DNA from: Desulfurivibrionaceae bacterium
GTDB taxonomy: Bacteria > Desulfobacterota > Desulfobulbia > Desulfobulbales > VMSU01
DNA: 64,000 nucleotides
Reading direction: 5' to 3'
NCBI GenBank assembly: GCA_030145275.1
Contig: JAQYVV010000002.1
Location: 62,001 to 126,000, forward strand
The translations under genes were made by a program, and so were the position numbers. Within the stretch, counting starts at the first letter, position 1. The number at the start of each line of letters is the position of its first letter. Below are positions 14,889 to 63,468 of the stretch, piece by piece. Below the pieces are notes generated by a model. The model made no database searches. It saw only the letters and a list, made by a program, of their open reading frames with translations, and was not told the origin of the DNA.

Positions 14889-15082
14889 GTAACTATTCAG
14901 CTGCATCTCATCTGCGCCCGATCAGGCCGGCCAGCATACTGATGTATCGAAGTCTCACTTTGTTTGCTTATCTGCTGGCCGGCCTGATCGAACACATCTA
15001 AGGCACATCCGGAGTCTGCGCTTACCTGAACAGTTACGCTTGGGAGTTTACCCATGTTATGCAATTCTCGCTGAGTAGTTAC
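14889..15082. repeat. Intergenic palindromic element, GTAACTATTCAG family
   Basis: The element begins GTAACTATTCAG and ends CTGAGTAGTTAC, an inverted pair with one mismatch. Inside, 14919-14936 and 14973-14990 form a perfect 18-bp hairpin (CGATCAGGCCGGCCAGCA and its complement). The loop holds a 25-nt expanded form of the 17-nt unit (14948-14972). A standard 17-nt unit lies at 15010-15026. It fills most of the 355-base gap between the divergent M20 peptidase and lexA genes, so it may carry or disturb both promoters. Confidence 0.8.
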
Positions 15083-19198: not shown

Positions 19199-19918
19199 TT
19201 AAACAGCTTCCCTGCCAAGGTAGGCCCTTTGCACATCATTATTTGCCAAAAGGTCTTCAGCCGGGCCTTGGACAATAATCTTGCCGGTCTCCAACACATA
19301 GCCCCTGTCCGCAATTGCAAGTGCCGCTTTGGCATTTTGTTCAACCAGCAGAACGGTGTTGCCGCTCTCTTTTAATTTTACAATAATTTCAAAAATGTTT
19401 TTGACGATTAAGGGTGCCAAGCCGGTGGAGGGCTCGTCCATCATAATCAGAGCAGGTTTGGCCATAAGCGAGCGGCCCATGGCCAACATCTGCTGTTCAC
19501 CGCCGGATAGGGTACCGGCAAGCTGGTTTTCTCGTTCCTTGAGGACTGGAAAAAGGGCAAAAATTTTATCCAGTTCCGCCAGAGCCTTTTTTTTATCTTT
19601 TTTGTAACGGACATAAGCGCCAAGAATTAGATTTTCCCTGACATTCATGGTGGCAAAGACCTGTCTTCCCTCAGGAACCAGGGAGCAGCCGAGTTTGACG
19701 ATTTTTTCAGGTGAGAGTCTGCAAAGATCATTGCCTTGCAAAACCATCTCACCAGCCCGTGGTTTGAGCAGGCCGCAAATGGTATGCAGCAGAGTAGTCT
19801 TGCCGGCCCCGTTGGCGCCGATTATGGTAACAATTTCTCCAGGATCAACATGCATGGAGATGCGGCGCAGTACCTTTAAATTACCATAGGCTGTTTCAAT
19901 GTTTTTTATCTTTAGCAT
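19199..19918 (-). CDS. livF: Branched-chain amino acid ABC transporter ATPase LivF
   Basis: 239 residues. Walker A is GANGAGKTT, the signature is LSGGEQQML, Walker B is LIMMDEPSTGLAP, and the H-loop region is VLLVEQNAKAAL. Length and signature fit LivF. It is separated from livG by 195 bases, nearly all taken by a repeat element (19920-20086). Reading along the gene's strand, the end of that element runs TAAGGCACTAAT directly into the ATG, so the only visible Shine-Dalgarno (AAGG) lies inside the repeat. The same junction occurs at thiF (31109). Confidence 0.95.
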   Translation of the reverse strand: MLKIKNIETAYGNLKVLRRISMHVDPGEIVTIIGANGAGKTTLLHTICGLLKPRAGEMVLQGNDLCRLSPEKIVKLGCSLVPEGRQVFATMNVRENLILGAYVRYKKDKKKALAELDKIFALFPVLKERENQLAGTLSGGEQQMLAMGRSLMAKPALIMMDEPSTGLAPLIVKNIFEIIVKLKESGNTVLLVEQNAKAALAIADRGYVLETGKIIVQGPAEDLLANNDVQRAYLGREAV

Positions 19919-19919
19919 A

Positions 19920-20086
19920 TTAGTGCCTTAGGGCTGGAATTCTGAAACAAAAAACAGGTAAGCAGAGACTCCGGGTAAGCGAAGACTCCGGGTAAGCAGA
20001 GACTCCGAAAAAATTAAATAAGGTCAATGCTGCTGGAAGGTTATAGCCTGCTGTTAAGGCACTTATTTCCGGTTTATCCGGATTAG
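19920..20086 (+). repeat. TTAGTGCC element, copy 1, with three 17-nt units
   Basis: It starts TTAGTGCCTTA against the livF start and ends TCCGGATTAG. An inner inverted copy (TAAGGCACTT near 20055) makes the element palindromic. In its middle lie three exact head-to-tail 17-nt units (19957-19973, 19974-19990, 19991-20007; GGTAAGCAGAGACTCCG type). It splits livF from the rest of the liv operon. Confidence 0.85.
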
Positions 20087-20113
20087 TTTTGTCGAGATGC
20101 TGGGGCGATGCCA

Positions 20114-25896: not shown

Positions 25897-26019
25897 TTTT
25901 CCCTCCAGTTAAGGTTTTTATAAAGATGTAATGATAGTCTCAATTTTGAGGCACTAATCGCTGGGATAAGTTGTTTATAGATTGTTTTTTAAAAAAACAA
26001 TAAAACTATCTGTAAGTAA

Positions 26020-26169
26020 CTAATCCGGATAAACCGGAAATAAGTGCCTTAACAGTGGTCTGCAACATATTGGGAGCATTGTTCTTTTTTTGAATTCTCG
26101 AAGACTTCGCTTATCCGAAGTCTTCGCTTATCTATTTTTTGTAACAAGATTTCAGTTATAAGGCACTAA
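26020..26169 (-). repeat. TTAGTGCC element, copy 2, with two 17-nt units
   Basis: On the minus strand it begins TTAGTGCCTTATAAC and ends CCGGATTAG. Its TTAG supplies the TAG stop codon of the ACT-domain gene (stop at 26166-26168). Two tandem 17-nt units lie at 26099-26115 and 26116-26132. The rest of the gap to livK (25897-26019) holds only AT-rich spacer and presumably the livK promoter. Confidence 0.85.
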
Positions 26170-30638: not shown

Positions 30639-30957
30639 CTTATACTCCTTTTTGTGTCAAAAGATATGTGCATGCACTATGTAAGAATGGTGTAATCATG
30701 GAATGCAATTTGCCATGCTTGGGTGAGTATTTATACATAGACGCAACGAAATGGAGTTTTTACCACGGATTTTTTCTAAAGTCAAAAGGCAAACGGGGTG
30801 TTTGTGATGCAGCAGAAATTGGGCCTGCTTGAAGGGAACCCCGCTGGAGTCTTTCATGTCCAGATTTTCAAAAAAACCTACCATCCTGAGACAAGGTAAG
30901 GTATATTCCAGGGTTCATTATTTGAGGCTTATCGTTGTGGCCAATCTCATCCTAGAT
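30639..30957. other. Intergenic region upstream of iorA, no gene recognised
   Basis: About 320 bases between iorA and the repeat element. A 62-codon reading frame on the minus strand (30696-30884) matches nothing I recognise and is probably chance. GGGG and CCCC around 30794-30832 could pair, but no known riboswitch pattern is complete. It presumably contains the iorA promoter. Confidence 0.4.
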
Positions 30958-31108
30958 CTGATCCGGATAAACCGGAAATAAGTGCCTTAACAGCAGTCTG
31001 CAACATATTGAGAGCATTATGCTTTTTGAAATCCTCGAAGTCTTTGCTTATCCGGAGTCTTCGCTTACCTGCTTTTTTGAGACAGGGTTTCAGTTATAAG
31101 GCACTAAT
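30958..31108 (-). repeat. TTAGTGCC element, copy 3, with two 17-nt units, abutting thiF
   Basis: Same sequence and orientation as copy 2. It starts with CCGGATAAACCGG and ends TTATAAGGCACTAAT, directly followed by the thiF ATG at 31109, so AAGG in the element is the visible ribosome-binding sequence. Two 17-nt units are at 31036-31052 and 31053-31069. Confidence 0.85.
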
Positions 31109-31900
31109 ATGATTCGAGTAAATGAAAAACCTGTTGTCTTTCGCAAAGGGACAAAGCTGAAAGATCTGGTTGCTGCCATCAAGCCTGGCGCAGATGTTTT
31201 TATCTTAAACGGATATCCTGTTTCCCAGGAAACCTTGGTGCTGGATAATGATGAGTGCTGGTTGCTAAAACGGGGTGATGTTCCCGACGCATCTGAGATG
31301 GAACATCTTTTGTACTCACGCCATACTCCCGGGGTGCAGGAAAAAATTAAGGGTAGCACGGTTGGTATAATGGGTTTGGGCGGACTTGGTTCCGTTGTTG
31401 CTGTTGCCTTAGCCCGGGTGGGGGTCGGCACCCTTCTTCTGGCCGATTATGACGTTGTGGAACCCAGTAATTTGAATCGGCAGCAATATTTCATTGCCCA
31501 GGTTGGCTTGAAGAAAACCCAAGCCATGCAGGCGAATCTGGCCCAGGTCAACCCTTATGTCCGGGTTGAAACTTTTGATGGTGAATTGAGCGAGGAAAAT
31601 ATCCCACTTGTTTTTGGGGATGTTGATGTTCTTGTTGAGTGTTTTGATCAGGCCGAAATGAAGGCAAAAGCACTGCGAACTGCATTGCTCCATCTTCCAG
31701 GGAAAGGATATGTGGGCGCCTCGGGTATGGCCGGGTTCGGTGAAAATAATCTGATTACCACAAAGAAAATATTTCCCAATGTGTTTGTGGTAGGTGACCA
31801 TAAGGCCGAGGCGAAACCCGGCCAGGGGCTAATGGCCCCACGAGTTGGCATTGCGGCTAACCATCAGGCAAACCAGGTACTCAGGATTCTGTTGGAGTAA
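31109..31900 (+). CDS. thiF: ThiS adenylyltransferase ThiF with N-terminal ThiS-like domain
   Basis: 263 residues. Residues 1-57 resemble ThiS (MIRVNEKPVVFRKGTKLKDL) but end without the Gly-Gly tail. The E1-like domain follows: GLGGLGSVVAVALARVGVG (nucleotide site), DYDVVEPSNLNRQ, and the later VECFDQAEMK. The usual CxxC zinc pairs of MoeB/ThiF are not visible. It should adenylate the ThiS C-terminus for sulfur transfer in thiazole synthesis. Both ends are set by repeats: the ribosome-binding site by the upstream element, and the TAA stop (31898-31900) by the GTAACTATTCAGG element downstream. Confidence 0.85.
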   Translation: MIRVNEKPVVFRKGTKLKDLVAAIKPGADVFILNGYPVSQETLVLDNDECWLLKRGDVPDASEMEHLLYSRHTPGVQEKIKGSTVGIMGLGGLGSVVAVALARVGVGTLLLADYDVVEPSNLNRQQYFIAQVGLKKTQAMQANLAQVNPYVRVETFDGELSEENIPLVFGDVDVLVECFDQAEMKAKALRTALLHLPGKGYVGASGMAGFGENNLITTKKIFPNVFVVGDHKAEAKPGQGLMAPRVGIAANHQANQVLRILLE

Positions 31901-32050
31901 CTATTCAGGTAGGGCTCAAAAAACGAGCATAACCACCGAATTGTAACTGTTTAGGAGTGCTCCATATTTGTTCATTTGGGACTTCGAAGTATACTAGTGC
32001 TATTCGAGAAGGCCGAAATGGGCGAAGATGGGGTGCTCCTGAATAGTTAC
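31897..32050 (+). repeat. Composite intergenic element between thiF and thiS
   Basis: The first block (31897-31956) matches 5342-5400. The second block runs from TTGTAACTGTTTAGGAG to CTCCTGAATAGTTAC at 32050 and matches the element at 33037-33161 in inverted orientation. It has no 17-nt unit: at the homologous place GAGAAGGCC joins GAAATGG directly (about 32007-32020). It gives thiF its stop codon. Confidence 0.85.
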
Positions 32051-32063
32051 CTGTTGGAAAAAA

Positions 32064-32265: not shown

Positions 32266-33033
32266 ATGCTGGAAATTGCAGGAAGAAAGTTTCGTTCCCG
32301 TCTGTTTACTGGGACAGGAAAGTTTTCATCATCTGAAGTTATGCGACAGGCCCTTGAGGCCTCAAATAGCGAGATGGTAACAGTGGCATTGCGCCGGGTT
32401 GATCTAAATGATCCGGGTGATGATATTATGCAGGTGCTGGACAGGGAGAAATTTTTCTTTTTGCCCAATACCTCTGGAGCCAGGGATGCACAAGAGGCAA
32501 TTCGCCTGGCAAAACTTGCTAAAGCCTCCGGTGGTGGTAATTGGTTGAAACTTGAAGTCACTCCAGATCCGAGGACGCTGCTGCCAGACCCGATTGAAAC
32601 CCTAAAGGCAACCGAGGAACTGGTTCGGGACGGCTTTGTGGTTCTGCCATATATGAACGCCGATCCTATTTTGGCATTGCGCCTTCAGGATGTGGGGGCT
32701 GCGGCTGTTATGCCTCTGGGGGCGCCAATTGGTACTAATAAAGGGCTGTTGACCCGTGATCAGGTAGAAATTATTATTTCCCAGGCCAAGGTGCCGGTTG
32801 TGGTTGATGCGGGCCTTGGTGCTCCATCACATGCTGCACTTGCAATGGAGATGGGGGCGGATGCGGTCCTGGTGAATACTGCCATTGCTGTGGCCGGTGA
32901 TCCGGTCGCAATGGCAATTGCCTTTGCAAAGGCCGTTGAGGCAGGGCGAGAGGCATATAAAGCTGGTCTTGGCACACAGGGTAGCGAGGCCTCCGCATCA
33001 TCGCCAGAAACGGGCCTTGGCTTTTTAAGATAG
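32266..33033 (+). CDS. thiG: Thiazole synthase ThiG
   Basis: 255 residues, a TIM barrel. Motifs: [11 protein letters not shown], the Schiff-base region [17 protein letters not shown] (Lys), [18 protein letters not shown] (phosphate site), and [32 protein letters not shown]. It condenses 1-deoxyxylulose phosphate, ThiS thiocarboxylate and dehydroglycine into the thiazole. It is followed by thiH, with a repeat element between them. Confidence 0.97.
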
Positions 33034-33036
33034 ATC

Positions 33037-33161
33037 ATAACTAATCAGGAACACCCCATCTTTGCCCATTTCGGAGTCTACGCTTACCTGGTCTTCTCGA
33101 ATAACACTAGTATGCTTCGAAGTCCCAAATGAACAAATATGCGGCCTTCCTGAATAGTTAT
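33037..33161 (-). repeat. Intergenic element between thiG and thiH with one 17-nt unit
   Basis: An inverted homologue of the second block of the thiF-thiS element: read on the minus strand, both share CATATTTGTTCATTTGGGAC and an ACTAGTG core. Between GAGAAGACC and GAAATGGGC this copy has exactly 17 additional bases, one 17-nt unit (33072-33088), that the other copy lacks. It ends ATAGTTAT, overlapping the first possible thiH ATG (33160). Confidence 0.88.
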
Positions 33162-33198
33162 GATAGATATAAAATTTGCAGAGAAAGATACAAAGATC

Positions 33199-34442: not shown

Positions 34443-35732
34443 ATGGCTGATTTAAAAAAAATGTATACCACTATTCTTGGGGACTCATTCCCCATGGAAA
34501 TGAAGATAAGTTTTGGGGATCAGACCCTGGTTTACAAGAAAAAAACCTGGAAAATCTTCATGGATGACGGATCGGTTGATGAACGTGGTGTCCGTTATGG
34601 TGAGAACCCGGATCAGGAAGCAGCTCTGTACGAACTGGTTAATGGTAATCTGGCCCTTGGTGACTGTCAGTATATAACTCCAGGAAACGGCTTGGTGAGC
34701 AGCATAAACGTAGAAGATATGCTGCAGGTTGGTAAGCATCCCGGAAAAATTAATCTCACCGACATTGATAATGGTTTGAATATTATCAAATATATGATGG
34801 ACAAGCCGGCCGCTACCATTCTCAAGCACAACAATCCCTGCGGCGCTGCTATTGGAAGTTCTATCAGCGATGCCTACAATAAGGCCAATAGAACCGACAG
34901 GATTGCTGCTTTTGGTGGCTGCGTTATTTTGAATAGGGCCTGTGATAAAGCGACGGCTGAGGCCATCAGTGATAATTATCTGGAGGTTGTTGTGGCACCG
35001 GAATTTGAAGATGGAAGTCTTGATATCCTGAAAGGCCGCAAAAACCTGCGTGTTATAAAAATTGCCAGGATAGACCGTTTGGCTGAATTTGAAAAATTTC
35101 GTTTTGCCGACTTCAAGAGCTTGATTGATGGAGGTTTAATGGTGCAGCAGTCTGCGGTCAATTCCATTCGGACAGTTGCGGACCTGAAACCTGCGGCCAG
35201 TACTTCCAAAGGTATAGACTACAAAGTTGAGCGCGAGCCTACCCAGCGTGAAATAGACGATATGCTGTTTGGTTGGGCTGTCGAGCATGGCGTTACCTCG
35301 AACTCAGTTATTTTTGTAAAAGATGGTTGTACTGTCGGTGTCGGAACTGGAGAGCAAGACAGGGTCGGGGTCGCAGAAATTGCAGTTCATAAGGCATATG
35401 TCAAATACGCTGATATTATCTGTTACGATCAATTTGGCATTCCTTATGCCGATTTAAATCTTGAAATTGAAGCAGGGAAGCGGGATAAGGCCGATCGTGA
35501 AGCCATAGATGCAAAAACTAAAGAAGATAAAGCAGGCTTGCCTGGCTCTGTTATGATATCGGATGCTTTTTTCCCATTTAGAGACGGAGCTGACGTTGGT
35601 ATCAGGCAGGGGGCCTCAGCTATTCTACAGGCCGGTGGTTCCATGCGTGATTGTGATACGATTGTGGCTTGTAATGAGGCGAATCCTAAGGTGGCCATGA
35701 AGTTCACCGGTCAAAGGTCTTTTAAACATTAG
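34443..35732 (+). CDS. Stand-alone AICAR transformylase (PurH C-terminal domain only)
   Basis: 429 residues with GGAGG seven bases before the ATG. It holds the AICARFT domain: VRYGENPDQEAALYEL, the catalytic ILKHNNPCG (Lys-His), AAFGGCVILNR, and the C-terminal DAFFPFRDGADVGIRQGASAILQ. The MGS-like IMP cyclohydrolase domain of ordinary PurH (about the first 200 residues) is absent, so a separate enzyme must close the IMP ring. Single-domain forms occur in anaerobic Desulfobacterota. With purM 860 bases on, this is a purine group. The TAG stop is part of a TTAGTGCC element. Confidence 0.92.
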   Translation: MADLKKMYTTILGDSFPMEMKISFGDQTLVYKKKTWKIFMDDGSVDERGVRYGENPDQEAALYELVNGNLALGDCQYITPGNGLVSSINVEDMLQVGKHPGKINLTDIDNGLNIIKYMMDKPAATILKHNNPCGAAIGSSISDAYNKANRTDRIAAFGGCVILNRACDKATAEAISDNYLEVVVAPEFEDGSLDILKGRKNLRVIKIARIDRLAEFEKFRFADFKSLIDGGLMVQQSAVNSIRTVADLKPAASTSKGIDYKVEREPTQREIDDMLFGWAVEHGVTSNSVIFVKDGCTVGVGTGEQDRVGVAEIAVHKAYVKYADIICYDQFGIPYADLNLEIEAGKRDKADREAIDAKTKEDKAGLPGSVMISDAFFPFRDGADVGIRQGASAILQAGGSMRDCDTIVACNEANPKVAMKFTGQRSFKH

Positions 35733-35878
35733 TGCCTTATAACTGAAATCCTGTCACAAAAAACAGATAAGCGTAGACTTCGGATAAGTGAAGGCTTCGA
35801 GAATTCCAAAAATGAACAATGCAGCCAATATGTTGCAGATCACTGTTAAGGCACTTATTTCCGGTTTATCCGGATTAG
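35729..35878 (+). repeat. TTAGTGCC element, copy 4, with two 17-nt units
   Basis: It begins TTAGTGCCTTATAAC, giving the stop of the AICAR transformylase gene (TAG at 35730-35732), and ends TATCCGGATTAG at 35878. Two tandem 17-nt units are at 35766-35782 and 35783-35799. It is nearly the same length as copies 2 and 3 (150 bases). Confidence 0.85.
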
Positions 35879-35917
35879 AATCTGCCTTACGGCCTTAATT
35901 ATGCTCTTGGTTTTAAA

Positions 35918-42092: not shown

Positions 42093-42270
42093 ACTCGTAA
42101 AAAGTCTGGATCTGCCTCAAGATGGCTAAGCACAGATAAGCGCAGACTTCAAGGCGTGGTATTTTTTAGCGGGCTTCGGTCATACATATGGTATACCGAA
42201 GGTCGGTAAAAAATCCATTTATGCCCCTTGTGGGTACAACGCAGTAGATCGGACTTTTTGCGACGCCATC
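42093..42270. repeat. Complex palindromic element between murJ and rsmE
   Basis: Outer arms TCGTAAAAAGTC (about 42094) and GACTTTTTGCGA (about 42254) pair with one mismatch. An inner stem pairs GGCTTCGGT with ACCGAAGGT around ATGGTAT near 42190. One 17-nt unit is at 42135-42151 (GATAAGCGCAGACTTCA). It covers the space between two convergent genes and may act as terminator for both. Confidence 0.7.
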
Positions 42271-50455: not shown

Positions 50456-50616
50456 GTAATTATTCGGATTGCCGCCGAAAAACAGTTAAAAGCGCTGAGC
50501 CCAGATGAACCGGAGATAAGCGTAGACTCCTATATGAAGCACATCCGGAGTCTGCGCTTACCTGAACAGTTACAGCCTGGAGTTAAGGGTAATTTCCGCC
50601 TACGCTGAATAATTAA
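50456..50616. repeat. Intergenic element between NtrC regulator and PHP gene, two 17-nt units
   Basis: Ends are GTAATTATTCGG and CTGAATAATTA. It has a 17-nt unit on the minus strand at 50515-50531 and another on the plus strand at 50546-50562, an inverted pair that could form a hairpin. The right half (TGAACAGTTACAGCCTGGAG onward) is repeated at 57413-57471, where the plus-strand unit is missing. The other part of this 334-base gap (50338-50455) shows nothing. Confidence 0.85.
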
Positions 50617-56625: not shown

Positions 56626-56783
56626 AGATAATGCTCCCGATCGTATATTTGGCTCGTGTGAACAGCATGTGGCGTAAATGCGGCACAAATGGACACGAAA
56701 ACTATTTAGTATAAAATAAAAGATCCAGAATAACAAGAGAAATGACGAAAGAACCGATGTGTGGGTGTTTTTTTTAGGTTAAT

Positions 56784-56851
56784 CTGAAGTCTGGGCTTTC
56801 CGAAGTCTCCTCTTGTCTGAAGTCTCACCTTATTCGAAGTCTTCGCTTATC
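56784..56851 (+). repeat. Tandem array of four 17-nt units
   Basis: Four head-to-tail units with exact 17-base spacing: 56784-56800, 56801-56817, 56818-56834 and 56835-56851. The last one, CGAAGTCTTCGCTTATC, equals the consensus; the first three are degenerate. The array lies between the divergent sigma factor and fliS genes, so it may sit in both promoters. Confidence 0.85.
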
Positions 56852-56909
56852 TGATGACATCAGAATTGAAAAATTAAAGTTTGTCTGCTGTTTGTTCGAT
56901 ACGAGTGAT

Positions 56910-59024: not shown

Positions 59025-59086
59025 ACGAAACACATTTATGCCCCTCGGATCGGAGTCTTCGCTTACCTTAGGGGTACGAAACACAC
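59025..59086. repeat. Short intergenic element with one 17-nt unit before aroB
   Basis: ACGAAACAC occurs at both ends in direct orientation, and CCCCT and AGGGG flank the centre as an inverted pair. The centre holds one 17-nt unit, CGGAGTCTTCGCTTACC (59051-59067). It fills the space between the sat terminator and aroB. Confidence 0.75.
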
Positions 59087-60398: not shown

Positions 60399-60511
60399 GT
60401 AAATGTTTGGCATGGCTTCATCTTCGCACAATCAGGCTGGCGTAGCATAGTTGGCTATGTGAGACAGCCTGATCGTGCGAAGATGAAGCCATGCCGAATA
60501 TTTACATTTAA
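60399..60511. repeat. Long perfect hairpin between aroB and the SUMF1-like gene
   Basis: 60409-60429 and 60475-60495 are perfect 21-bp arms; they begin GGCATGGCTTCATC and end GATGAAGCCATGCC. The stem continues with one bulge into CAGGCTG and CAGCCTG. Flanks TAAATGTTT and AATATTTACATTTA are also inverted. It sits at the 3' ends of two convergent genes, overlapping the stop at 60508, and could work as a bidirectional terminator. Confidence 0.85.
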
Positions 60512-63468
60512 ACAGCACATCTGAATCCGATTATATTGGACCAAGTGTCAGGTTCAAGGAGGCGGTGACTGACTGAGGTCACGCCTGAGGTGCCCCAGCT
60601 TCCTCCTTTGAGGATGTATATGTTTTTTTCGGCGCCAGCAATATTGATTTTATGATGGATCGTCGAGGTCCATTCAAATACGTTGCCCAGAAGATCACAC
60701 AGGCCAAAAGGGCTGGCCGATTCTGATCCAAAATATTCCACCGGTGTTGAGTCTCCAATATATGAGGAGGCTAGATTACATAACTCATTGATCCACAAAT
60801 TTCCCCAAGGGAACAGCCGACCATCTTCACCACGTGCCGCAGCTTCCCACTCCGCCTCAGTTGGCAGTCTTTTTCCCGCCCAGGACGCAAATGCCTGGGC
60901 ATCTTCACGGCTCACTTGGACAACAGGGTGGTTCGCCTTGTTTTCAATGGTTTTACCCGGTCCATTGGGGTTTCTCCAGTTTGCTCCATCCACAGAATGG
61001 GAGGTATGTCCTTTGGATATTATAAGGGTTGATCTTCCTGTTTGTGGGTCAGTTTTTGAAACGCATTGGCCTTGATGGACTATCCCGTATCCTGCTTTTT
61101 CGGCATCAGTTTGATAGCCTGTCTCCCTCACAAAGAGATCAAATATATCGTTTGTGACAGGGTATTGGCCAAGATAAAATGTTTTAATAGGGATTTTTTG
61201 AAGCGGTTGCTCGTTAGGTTTTGGATGCGCACTGCCAATTTGGTATTCTCCTTGCGGTATTTTTATATACCTTGGGGTGAATCGATCCATCAGTTGGGCC
61301 ACCAGGCCCTCCTCAGATTCTGAAAGAAGCTCAGTTTGTTCCTTGAAAGCTTCATCTGGTTCCATGTATTTTGAGAGAACCTCTATCAGTCTATTTGGTG
61401 TTTTTTCTTCAATTTCTTCTGTGATTTCGTCGAAATCGTTGTCAACTTCGACTTCTTCAAACTCGCTTTCCTGGATTTCCTCTATATCATCGTCAATCTC
61501 GACTTCTTCTAGCTCGCCTTCTGGTATTTCTTCTATGTCATCGTCAATCTCGACTTCTTCCAGCTCACCTTCTGGTATTTCTTCTATGTCATCGTCAATC
61601 TCGACTTCTTCCAGCTCACCTTCTGGAATCTCCTCTATCTCATCGTCAATCTCGACTTCTTCCAGCTCACCTTCTGGAATCTCCTCTATCTCATCGTCAA
61701 TCTCGACTTCTTCCAGCTCACCTTCTGGAATCTCCTCTATCTCATCGTCAATCTCGACTTCTTCCAACTCACCTTCTGGGATTTCCTCTATCTCATCGTC
61801 AATCTCGACTTCTTCCAGTTCACCTTCTGGGATTTCCTCTATCTCATCGTCAATCTCGACTTCTTCCAGTTCAGCTTCTGGGATTTCCTCTATCTCATCG
61901 TCAATCTCGACTTCTTCCAGTTCACCTTCTTGAATTTCCTCTATCTCATCGTCAATCTCGACTTCTTCCAGTTCAGCTTCTTGGATTTCCTCTATCTCAT
62001 CGTCAATCTCGACTTCTTCCAGTTCAGCTTCTTGAATTTCCTCTATCTCATCGTCAATCTCGACTTCTTCCAGTTCACCTTCTGGGATTTCCTCTATCTC
62101 ATCGTCAATCTCGACTTCTTCCAGTTCACCTTCTGGGATTTCCTCTATCTCATCGTCAATCTCGACTTCTTCCAGTTCAGCTTCTTGGATTTCCTCTATC
62201 TCATCGTCAATCTCGACTTCTTCCAGCTCACCCTCTGGCATTTTCCCTACGCCGCCGTCACCTCCAACTTCTGCCAGTTCCCCTTCTGGTGTTTCCCCTA
62301 CGCCGCCGTCACCTCCAACTTCTGCCAGTCCCCCTTCTGGTGTTTCCCCTACGCCGCCGTCACCTCCAACCTCTGCCAGTTCCCCTTCTGGTGTTTCCCC
62401 TACGCCGCCGTCACCTCCAACCTCTGCCAGTTCCCCCTCTGGCATTTTCCCTACGTCGCCGTCACCCCTAACTTCTGCCAGTTCTCCTTCTGGTGTTTTC
62501 CCTACGCCGCCGTCACCTCCAACCTCTGCCAGTTCCCCCTCTGGTATTTTCCCTACGTCGCCGTCACCCCCAACTTCTGCCAGTTCCCCTTCTGGTGTTT
62601 TCCCTACGCCGCCGTCACCTCCAACCTCTGCCAGTTCCCCTTCTGGTATTTTCCCTACGCCACCGTCACCTTCAACTTCTTCTAGTTCCCCTGTCTGAAT
62701 TTCTGCTATATCATTGTCAACCTCAGCTAAAGGTCCTATGTTGCCATGATCCCCAGTTTGATCTCCCTCAGAAGTACCACTCTTAACTTTATCACTACCC
62801 GCAGACTCTTCACTCCTATCACCTAGGCCCTTACTTCCTGCACCTGCTCCCTCAATGTCACCTAGCTCCCCCCTCTTTGCTTTTTCAACGTTTTCCTTGG
62901 CCTCAAGTAACTGGGAGTTTAGTTCTCCAAGTTGCTTCTCTTGGTTTCCTAAACGAGAGTTCAGTTCGTCAATTATTTTTTTGCTATCTTCGAGGCCTTT
63001 AAGGAGTTCGTTTAATTTTTTTGCTCCATCTGTGCCGGCCAATCCAGGCAGGGCCTCTTTGAAGGCTGAGATCATCTCTGCAAAGGCGGGAACCTCTCCG
63101 CTTATGCCCCCCATCTTTTTCAAAAGTTCATTCTTATGCTCTTCTGATACTTCAAAAGTGTTTTGCCGGCCAATGATTATTCCTTCCGGGTTTAAACCAT
63201 CTTTGGCAGATTTTTTTAGGGATTTGTTCAGGGAAGATTTCAGGCCGCTTAGGTTCTTCTTCTTCTGCTTTATTTCAGCTGGATCATTAATCTGCCAGAC
63301 CTTTGCAACAAGCTCTTCAGCCGGGATAGTTGTGAGAGAATCCAGTGAATCGGTGTCCGGGGAATATTCCCTGAGAACGGCAAGCAGTTTTGCTTTTAAT
63401 GTATCTGGCTTGCAGGCAAGGTTTTTAATTGCCTGGTCTATTCCTTCTATTGATACGAAAGTTGGCAT
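60508..63468 (-). CDS. SUMF1/FGE-like protein with 26 acidic 17-residue repeats
   Basis: 986 residues in four parts. Residues 1-140: charged, helical, no family recognised. About 150-200: coiled coil (EELNSRLGNQEKQLGELNSQ is typical). About 245-690: 26 tandem 17-residue repeats, first one odd unit, then nine Gly-rich units (EVGGDGGVGKTPEGELA) and then about 16 acidic units (EVEIDDEIEEIPEGELE). About 725-986: a formylglycine-generating enzyme/SUMF1 fold with GEYQIGSAHPKPNEQP, YPVTNDIFDLFV, RLPTEAEWEAAARG, GNVFEWTS and IGFRCA. The catalytic Cys expected about 16 residues before GFRCA is absent (Ser/His there), so sulfatase activation is unlikely; a binding role is more likely. No signal peptide is seen. 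Start ATG lacks a clear ribosome-binding site. Confidence 0.85.
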   Translation of the reverse strand: MPTFVSIEGIDQAIKNLACKPDTLKAKLLAVLREYSPDTDSLDSLTTIPAEELVAKVWQINDPAEIKQKKKNLSGLKSSLNKSLKKSAKDGLNPEGIIIGRQNTFEVSEEHKNELLKKMGGISGEVPAFAEMISAFKEALPGLAGTDGAKKLNELLKGLEDSKKIIDELNSRLGNQEKQLGELNSQLLEAKENVEKAKRGELGDIEGAGAGSKGLGDRSEESAGSDKVKSGTSEGDQTGDHGNIGPLAEVDNDIAEIQTGELEEVEGDGGVGKIPEGELAEVGGDGGVGKTPEGELAEVGGDGDVGKIPEGELAEVGGDGGVGKTPEGELAEVRGDGDVGKMPEGELAEVGGDGGVGETPEGELAEVGGDGGVGETPEGGLAEVGGDGGVGETPEGELAEVGGDGGVGKMPEGELEEVEIDDEIEEIQEAELEEVEIDDEIEEIPEGELEEVEIDDEIEEIPEGELEEVEIDDEIEEIQEAELEEVEIDDEIEEIQEAELEEVEIDDEIEEIQEGELEEVEIDDEIEEIPEAELEEVEIDDEIEEIPEGELEEVEIDDEIEEIPEGELEEVEIDDEIEEIPEGELEEVEIDDEIEEIPEGELEEVEIDDEIEEIPEGELEEVEIDDDIEEIPEGELEEVEIDDDIEEIPEGELEEVEIDDDIEEIQESEFEEVEVDNDFDEITEEIEEKTPNRLIEVLSKYMEPDEAFKEQTELLSESEEGLVAQLMDRFTPRYIKIPQGEYQIGSAHPKPNEQPLQKIPIKTFYLGQYPVTNDIFDLFVRETGYQTDAEKAGYGIVHQGQCVSKTDPQTGRSTLIISKGHTSHSVDGANWRNPNGPGKTIENKANHPVVQVSREDAQAFASWAGKRLPTEAEWEAAARGEDGRLFPWGNLWINELCNLASSYIGDSTPVEYFGSESASPFGLCDLLGNVFEWTSTIHHKINIAGAEKNIYILKGGSWGTSGVTSVSHRLLEPDTWSNIIGFRCAV
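61420..62730 (-). repeat. 51-bp tandem repeat array inside the SUMF1-like gene
   Basis: About 26 units with a period of 51 bp, in two blocks: the acidic block (about 61420-62230) and the Gly-Asp block (about 62230-62680). Both blocks share the PEGEL part of the unit, which implies one ancestor that split. Unit-to-unit identity at the DNA level is very high within each block, a sign of recent expansion, so copy number is probably variable between strains. Confidence 0.92.

Follow-up and report, generated by a model that had tools for sequence, protein, structure and literature searches.

The thi operon of this Desulfurivibrionaceae bacterium contains two related elements in opposite orientation that are distinguished by a stretch of 17 nucleotides. 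The question that they raise is whether these 17 nt constitute a unit that is inserted into, or removed from, an existing element as a block, and what kind of unit this would be. The operon lies in the 64,000-nt stretch of DNA analysed here (the window). Its reading frames and elements follow each other in the order thiF-like, element A, thiS, thiG, element B, thiH, where gene names were assigned from sequence and gene order rather than by a family search. The features of the pair, derived from sequence and alignment, are as follows:

31889–31896, no strand: target duplication CTGTTGGA, left copy, of element A
31897–32050, minus strand: element A, empty MITE copy of 154 nt between thiF and thiS
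32051–32058, no strand: target duplication CTGTTGGA, right copy, of element A
33037–33161, plus strand: element B, filled MITE copy between thiG and thiH
33072–33088, plus strand: 17-nt unit CGGAGTCTACGCTTACC in element B at slot 35, CATTT^TGG, placed by alignment to the family consensus

Compared with the family consensus, element B contains CGGAGTCTACGCTTACC as a single 17-nt insertion and has no other indels, while element A has none at all. This agrees with the claim of an earlier note on this DNA that the two are inverted homologues with a net difference of exactly 17 nt. On the strand used in that note, the empty copy (31943–32050, reversed) reads CCATTTC-GGCCTTCTCG and the filled copy (33037–33161) reads CCATTTCGGAGTCTACGCTTACCTGGTCTTCTCG. 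The note had the length of the unit right, but its frame was off by one base relative to the family unit at 33072–33088, and the bases CC that it placed on both sides of the insert are made up of unit and host sequence and do not represent a target duplication. The extent of 31943–32050 given to the empty element was too short: element A, with the ends GTAACTATTCAG and CTGAATAGTTAC, occupies 31897–32050 and is flanked by a perfect 8-bp target duplication. Element B is a shortened copy with GATAGAT(C/A) at either side, its flanks being GATAGATC (33029–33036) and GATAGATA (33162–33169). In the family frame, the base 3' of the unit is T in the filled thi copy and C in the empty one. The empty MITE also provides the stop codon of the thiF-like gene, in which CTGTTGGA is followed by GTAA (31889–31900) and the frame ends at TAA.

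A genome search for the host element gave 47 matches; about 500 bases were read around 40 places, and a 108-nt core served to align 38 family copies. Length differences between the copies were nearly all due to blocks, and other indels were almost absent. Ten of the 38 copies were empty, and the others held one to four units, each 17, 23 or 24 nt long and located mostly in five fixed slots (the caret marks the junction):

Slot 25: CATCT^TCGCC
Slot 35, the slot filled in the thi pair: CATTT^TGG
Slot 74: reverse complement TCATT^TAGGG or TCATT^TGGG
Slot 83: reverse complement CATAT^TCGTTC
Slot 96: CACATC^TGAAC

The earlier note had proposed such an alignment of all copies, and had regarded the thi pair as direct evidence for a block that is inserted or removed. 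The block is borne out by the family alignment. The pair by itself is weak evidence, because both elements are diverged copies. With at least ten empty copies in the genome, the empty thi element is not an exception in an otherwise filled family. In the clearest comparison of this kind, a copy with four blocks totalling 81 nt (L029) was identical in 107 of its 108 host bases to two empty copies (L039 and L042). This four-unit MITE is a repeated type, found in four copies with an identical pattern. In two copies (L018 and L025), a different 27-nt block, TGTGCCGCGAAGCAAATGCCCTTGGGG, was present at position 86 of the core, and GTGCCCTTGGGGTGCG-like text occurred also in L047 and L048; from its sequence, this block probably represents a second family of small insertable units. 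In another copy (L019), an inverted copy of a left arm had taken the place of the right half of the MITE, which points to recombination within the palindrome or to template switching there.

That the host element is a MITE follows from the 8-bp target duplications at three copies, namely element A and two further copies with perfect duplications, L033 (CATCATGA) and L014 (AATTATTT); the chance of an 8-bp duplication with at most one mismatch is ≈0.0008 per pair. Elements of the IS66 type have GTAA...TTAC-like ends and an 8-bp target duplication, and both were present when the host ends and duplication were tested against this type. This likeness belongs to the host element, not to the 17-nt unit. 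IS66 elements and related MITEs in the relatives within the order end in GTAAGCG/CGCTTAC. The window itself contains, at 60399–60505, an inverted repeat of 41 nt (GTAAATGTTTGGC...TATTTAC), whose arms are 93% complementary and enclose a loop of 25 nt and which looks, from its sequence, like another GTAA-ended MITE. It lies just 3' of a minus-strand reading frame (60508–63468) in which a 51-nt tandem array at 61441–62724 encodes acidic 17-residue repeats, EEVEIDDEIEEIPEGEL; the domain downstream of these repeats looks, in sequence, like a formylglycine-generating enzyme.

The copies filled at slot 35 differed more in the host than in the unit. Host sequences were 9–11% diverged pairwise, while the unit was 1% (17-nt form) or 0% (24-nt form) diverged, and both forms were present in both host sublineages. 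Units at this slot are thus younger than the host copies or have been exchanged between them. Furthermore, the +1 base was always T in filled copies, while in empty copies it was A, C, G or T and mostly not T. This exception can be read as an insertion into a T variant, such as that of L032, followed by spreading of the filled arm between copies; alternatively, the T could have arrived together with the unit. Recombination between MITE copies is likely to have spread some units at slot 35, so the thi pair need not record an insertion of its own; it is a fair, though non-independent, example. The host tree was poorly resolved, and counts of gain and loss changes were left unused.

Across the family, the unit has the form CGGAGTCT-N-CGCTTACC, with 16 fixed bases. 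Variants have CGA..ATC ends, or a centre of 7–9 nt in place of 1. The blocks measure 17 nt with N as their centre, 23 nt with CGTNCCT and 24 nt with CGCANNCT, and 25-nt forms were found in other genomes. Unit positions 3 and 16 were linked (G..C 60, A..T 37, mixed 3 in a hand count of 100 listed rows from the window's genome, G000; p ≈ 1e-23), and likewise in two genomes from other families, G087 and G063. Such linkage would be expected of two bases that pair when a single strand folds. However, the predicted folds were weak, so the two subtypes may just be two old lineages: the 17-nt unit was predicted to be unfolded as single-stranded DNA, with no stable hairpin, and the longer forms were predicted to fold no better than shuffled sequences. 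With non-inverted ends and seamless junctions, the unit has neither the terminal inverted repeats nor the target duplication of a MITE.

At up to three mismatches, 12 matches to CGGAGTCTCCGCTTACC were found in the window (0.05 expected), and the 3.1-Mb genome contained ≈290 matches (165 + 125) to the degenerate unit at up to one mismatch, compared to 2 for a reversed control. Besides the unit in element B, the window contains the following:

15010–15026, plus strand: unit in the CACATC^TGAACAG context (slot 96 type)
19957–20007, minus strand: three tandem units in a second repeat family
26099–26132, plus strand: two tandem units (CGA..ATC subtype) in the second repeat family
31036–31069, plus strand: two tandem units, one of each subtype, in the second repeat family
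35766–35799, minus strand: two tandem units (CGA..ATC subtype) in the second repeat family
42135–42151, minus strand: unit with two mismatches to the CGA..ATC form
50515–50531, minus strand: unit with three mismatches
50546–50562, plus strand: unit in the CACATC^TGAACAG context
56783–56854, plus strand: about four degenerate tandem units
59051–59067, plus strand: unit in an apparently single spacer (CTCGGAT^TTAGGGG)

The second repeat family (19909–20088, 26018–26169, 30957–31077 and 35718–35879) carries two to three tandem 17-nt units in variable number, and related flanks were seen in other genera (L075, L098, L102 and L112). Units were depleted from genes: long reading frames make up 78% of the DNA but contained 25 of 180 units (p ≈ 1e-75). 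Many lie in repeats, and many sit in palindromes. No known RNA family was detected in the window at the gathering threshold.

The junctions of 96 non-redundant sites defined a short target. The base at −1 was T in 69% and C in 18%, the base at +1 was T in 93%, and the next base was G in 71% and C in 17%, while G was rare at −2. Filled and empty sites could be paired in 49 non-redundant contexts from many genera, and T was present at +1 in 43 of the 49 empty sites. Since this T is already there in the empty sites, the insertion is seamless at Y^TS. There was no target duplication at unit junctions, and the orientation of the unit followed the target sequence. The healed target sites showed no enrichment of hairpins (mean z −0.4, compared to −0.3 for random windows). 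The sequences that host the unit comprise several unrelated repeat families, ordinary spacers and other units, and in these the unit constitutes a precise block. Units nested in units, as CGAAGTCTACGCT[unit]TACC and equivalents, were found in three genomes (L297, L089 and L142; CGCT^TACC). Three copies in G087 (L211, L215 and L217) had the arrangement GGTAAGCGAGCT[unit]TGCGAGACTCCG, with a unit located centrally within a 24-nt unit of the opposite strand. Nesting of this kind can hardly be accounted for other than by insertion.

Different lineages use different slots: in G106 and G107, which represent another family of Desulfobulbales, the units of related MITEs occupy CCTCA^TCTTC. Together with the nested units, this favours insertion overall rather than proving the direction site by site. 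The comparison of orthologues gave no clean single-copy site that was filled in one species and empty in another. When G106 is compared with G102 and G109, a ferredoxin-like gene has 46 additional nt at its 3' end, consisting of GTAAGTGTTCACCCGCACCTCA followed by the unit, with TTTTAAG repeated at either side. Here, the MITE end and the unit either arrived jointly or remained after an internal deletion, and because the MITE end accompanies the unit, this orthologue does not isolate it. At a second orthologous locus, a MITE with units in G106 is missing from the equivalent place in G102.

The 16 fixed bases were found in 42 of 96 genomes of relatives in a first survey. Across the class, 124 of 258 genomes had them, every one belonging to a single order of sulfate-reducing bacteria, Desulfobulbales; elsewhere in the phylum, they occurred in none of 285 genomes (p ≈ 1e-49). 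Members of the order among the relatives included Desulfobulbaceae, Desulfocapsa, Desulforhopalus, Desulfogranum and Desulfobulbus. The distribution within the order was uneven. Many members had no unit, G000 had the highest count among all genomes scored, in one genus (g14) copy numbers of 107, 13 and 1 in three members contrast with none in the others sampled, and in another (g42) one member had 118 copies and two had none. The unit is present in the isolates Desulfogranum marinum DSM 2058 and Desulfobulbus rhabdoformis DSM 8777 as well as in metagenome assemblies from many studies, and we therefore rejected a sequencing or assembly artefact. Seventeen stretches in viral contigs carry the 16 fixed bases, some of which are perhaps not real members. 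One of these contigs, IMGVR_UViG_3300033153_011881, has four units within CGATTATTCGAT-type repeats (L170, L174 and L176) and could be derived from a virus of Desulfobulbales that carries units. A literature search that covered few subscription journals yielded no paper on such repeats in Desulfobulbales, and a text search for four octamers of the unit gave only unrelated matches among those listed. The units constitute an order-wide family of ultra-short insertable units that is without description in the literature searched.

On balance, we favour the explanation that the 17-nt block is a copy of an ultra-short, non-autonomous mobile unit of Desulfobulbales whose movement would not depend on its host MITEs. 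The unit would be joined in by an enzyme that acts in trans and cuts at Y^T, in the simplest case as a single strand in the manner of an HUH transposase. It would have spread further as MITE copies underwent gene conversion and as loaded MITEs were amplified. The thi pair itself consists of a filled and an empty copy of an older MITE, which has 8-bp target duplications and was moved by a different route. The parts of this explanation differ in strength. We have little doubt about the block-insertion step, and mobility of the unit independent of its hosts is likely. Gene conversion among MITE copies probably spreads units too, whereas HUH-like chemistry, proposed by analogy, is a tentative suggestion.

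Several other explanations have to be weighed against this one. The unit might have no mobility of its own, having been built anciently into a few repeats and spread by gene conversion, recombination and amplification of loaded MITEs. The similarity of the slot-35 units relative to their hosts, the shuffling of the 17- and 24-nt forms over host sublineages, the +1 T that travels with the unit at this slot, the location of many units in repeats and the single G106 insertion that contains both unit and MITE end all point in this direction. However, the 96 non-redundant flanks require insertion into unrelated sequence, and units are found in apparently single-copy spacers and nested at CGCT^TACC in three genomes, making such an origin improbable, though still to be reckoned with. 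If, instead, the filled state were ancestral and the empty copies were precise deletions of the unit, the four-unit MITE, as a repeated type of four copies with one pattern, and the fact that the direction at single slots is not directly observed would be accommodated. Such a scenario requires the unit to have been excised exactly and without a scar at five slots, from dozens of unrelated contexts and from inside other units, with no flanking repeats to guide the deletion. Many members of the order, moreover, carry no units at all, and we regard this scenario as extremely unlikely.

Two further alternatives derive the unit from known transposons. The right end of the unit, CGCTTAC(C), equals the terminus of the IS66 elements and related MITEs of the order, and the CTTACC of the G106 unit is at the outer edge of the small insertion, as would be expected if an IS66-type transposon had left the unit behind as a footprint or as a fragment of its end. 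However, there is no 8-bp duplication around units, and the left half, CGGAGTCT, is unlike any IS66 end. The DNA examined contained no convincing pair of unit halves that bounded a long element within 4 kb (six loose pairings look like chance), and G000 (84% complete), G005, G063, G084 and G254 had no IS66 transposase match; the unit is thus very unlikely to be such a fragment. The unit could also be a reduced REP that depends for its movement on a Y1 transposase of the RAYT type, since a GGAG lies close to its 5' end and its target is Y^T, comparable to TnpAREP cutting at CT. The most unit-rich genome, G000 (84% complete), had no match to the Y1 transposase (PF01797), none of 21 Y1 loci in relatives (nine RAYT-like, twelve IS200-like) had units nearby, and the unit has no stem and no strand bias relative to replication (21 versus 13 in G087 by hand count; 32 versus 42 by local GC skew, p = 0.3). 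A REP origin is therefore doubtful.

We know of no enzyme able to insert such a 17-nt block. HUH transposases are, by analogy, the nearest mechanistic counterpart, sharing seamless joining, a short target with T on its 3' side and a fixed orientation. TnpAREP cuts at CT, and the last bases of its guide tetranucleotide choose the site (PMC8266576); extrapolated to the unit, this rule would have a GGAG guide choose Y^T. IS200 and REP elements are joined without duplication (PMC8266576, PMC6006769), and REPs have a stem-loop with a fully paired basal stem of 7–20 nt (PMC6006769). Like the unit, REPs and REPINs moved by RAYTs are small, reside in spacers in many copies and are expected to have no target duplication. 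The unit differs in its lack of a stem-loop, in its GGAG in place of a GTAG/GTGG foot and in the lack of a RAYT in the most unit-rich genome. REPs are cut at CT with a preference for the lagging strand; the unit has junctions at Y^T, and a strand bias relative to replication was not detected. A Y2 transposase of the IS91/Helitron-like kind (PF04986) likewise had no match in G000, G005, G254 or G063, all of which carry units. With no matching transposase, no hairpin, no strand bias and no unit near Y1 genes, the HUH route can be considered only a weak candidate.

In its behaviour, the unit works like the small dispersed repeats (SDRs) of cyanobacteria, by analogy the nearest known kind. These were reportedly described by Elhai et al. 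in 2008. Both are ≈20 nt long, dispersed in many copies, sometimes tandem, and precisely inserted into other repeats, the unit having empty counterparts. SDR5 of Nostoc is reported to be a module of ≈20 nt inserted precisely between nucleotides 3 and 4 of the HIP1 repeat (PMC4390886, PMC2884548). The unit is not inserted inside HIP1 (GCGATCGC), its target being Y^T(G/C), and the SDRs differ from it in phylum and target (HIP1 versus Y^TS). In Porphyromonas gingivalis, a minisatellite of variable copy number is found inside a MITE (PMC4596501), comparable to the unit as a short repeat of variable number in a MITE. This minisatellite is reported from one MITE, whereas the Desulfobulbales unit is dispersed over many slots, also outside MITEs.

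At 17 nt, with no hairpin, inverted ends or target duplication, the unit may be among the smallest transposing DNAs in sequence data and may owe its movement to a novel activity that acts in trans and cuts at Y^T, with its 16 fixed bases kept alike throughout the order. For studies of the movement of 20-nt repeats, among them the SDRs of cyanobacteria, the present family offers a defined unit and target (Y^TS), dozens of filled and empty pairs, and nested copies. Furthermore, genera in which one species has >100 copies and its congeners none make the responsible enzyme searchable by genome comparison. The small spacer repeats of Desulfobulbales are layered, from the MITE to the unit and to the unit within a unit.
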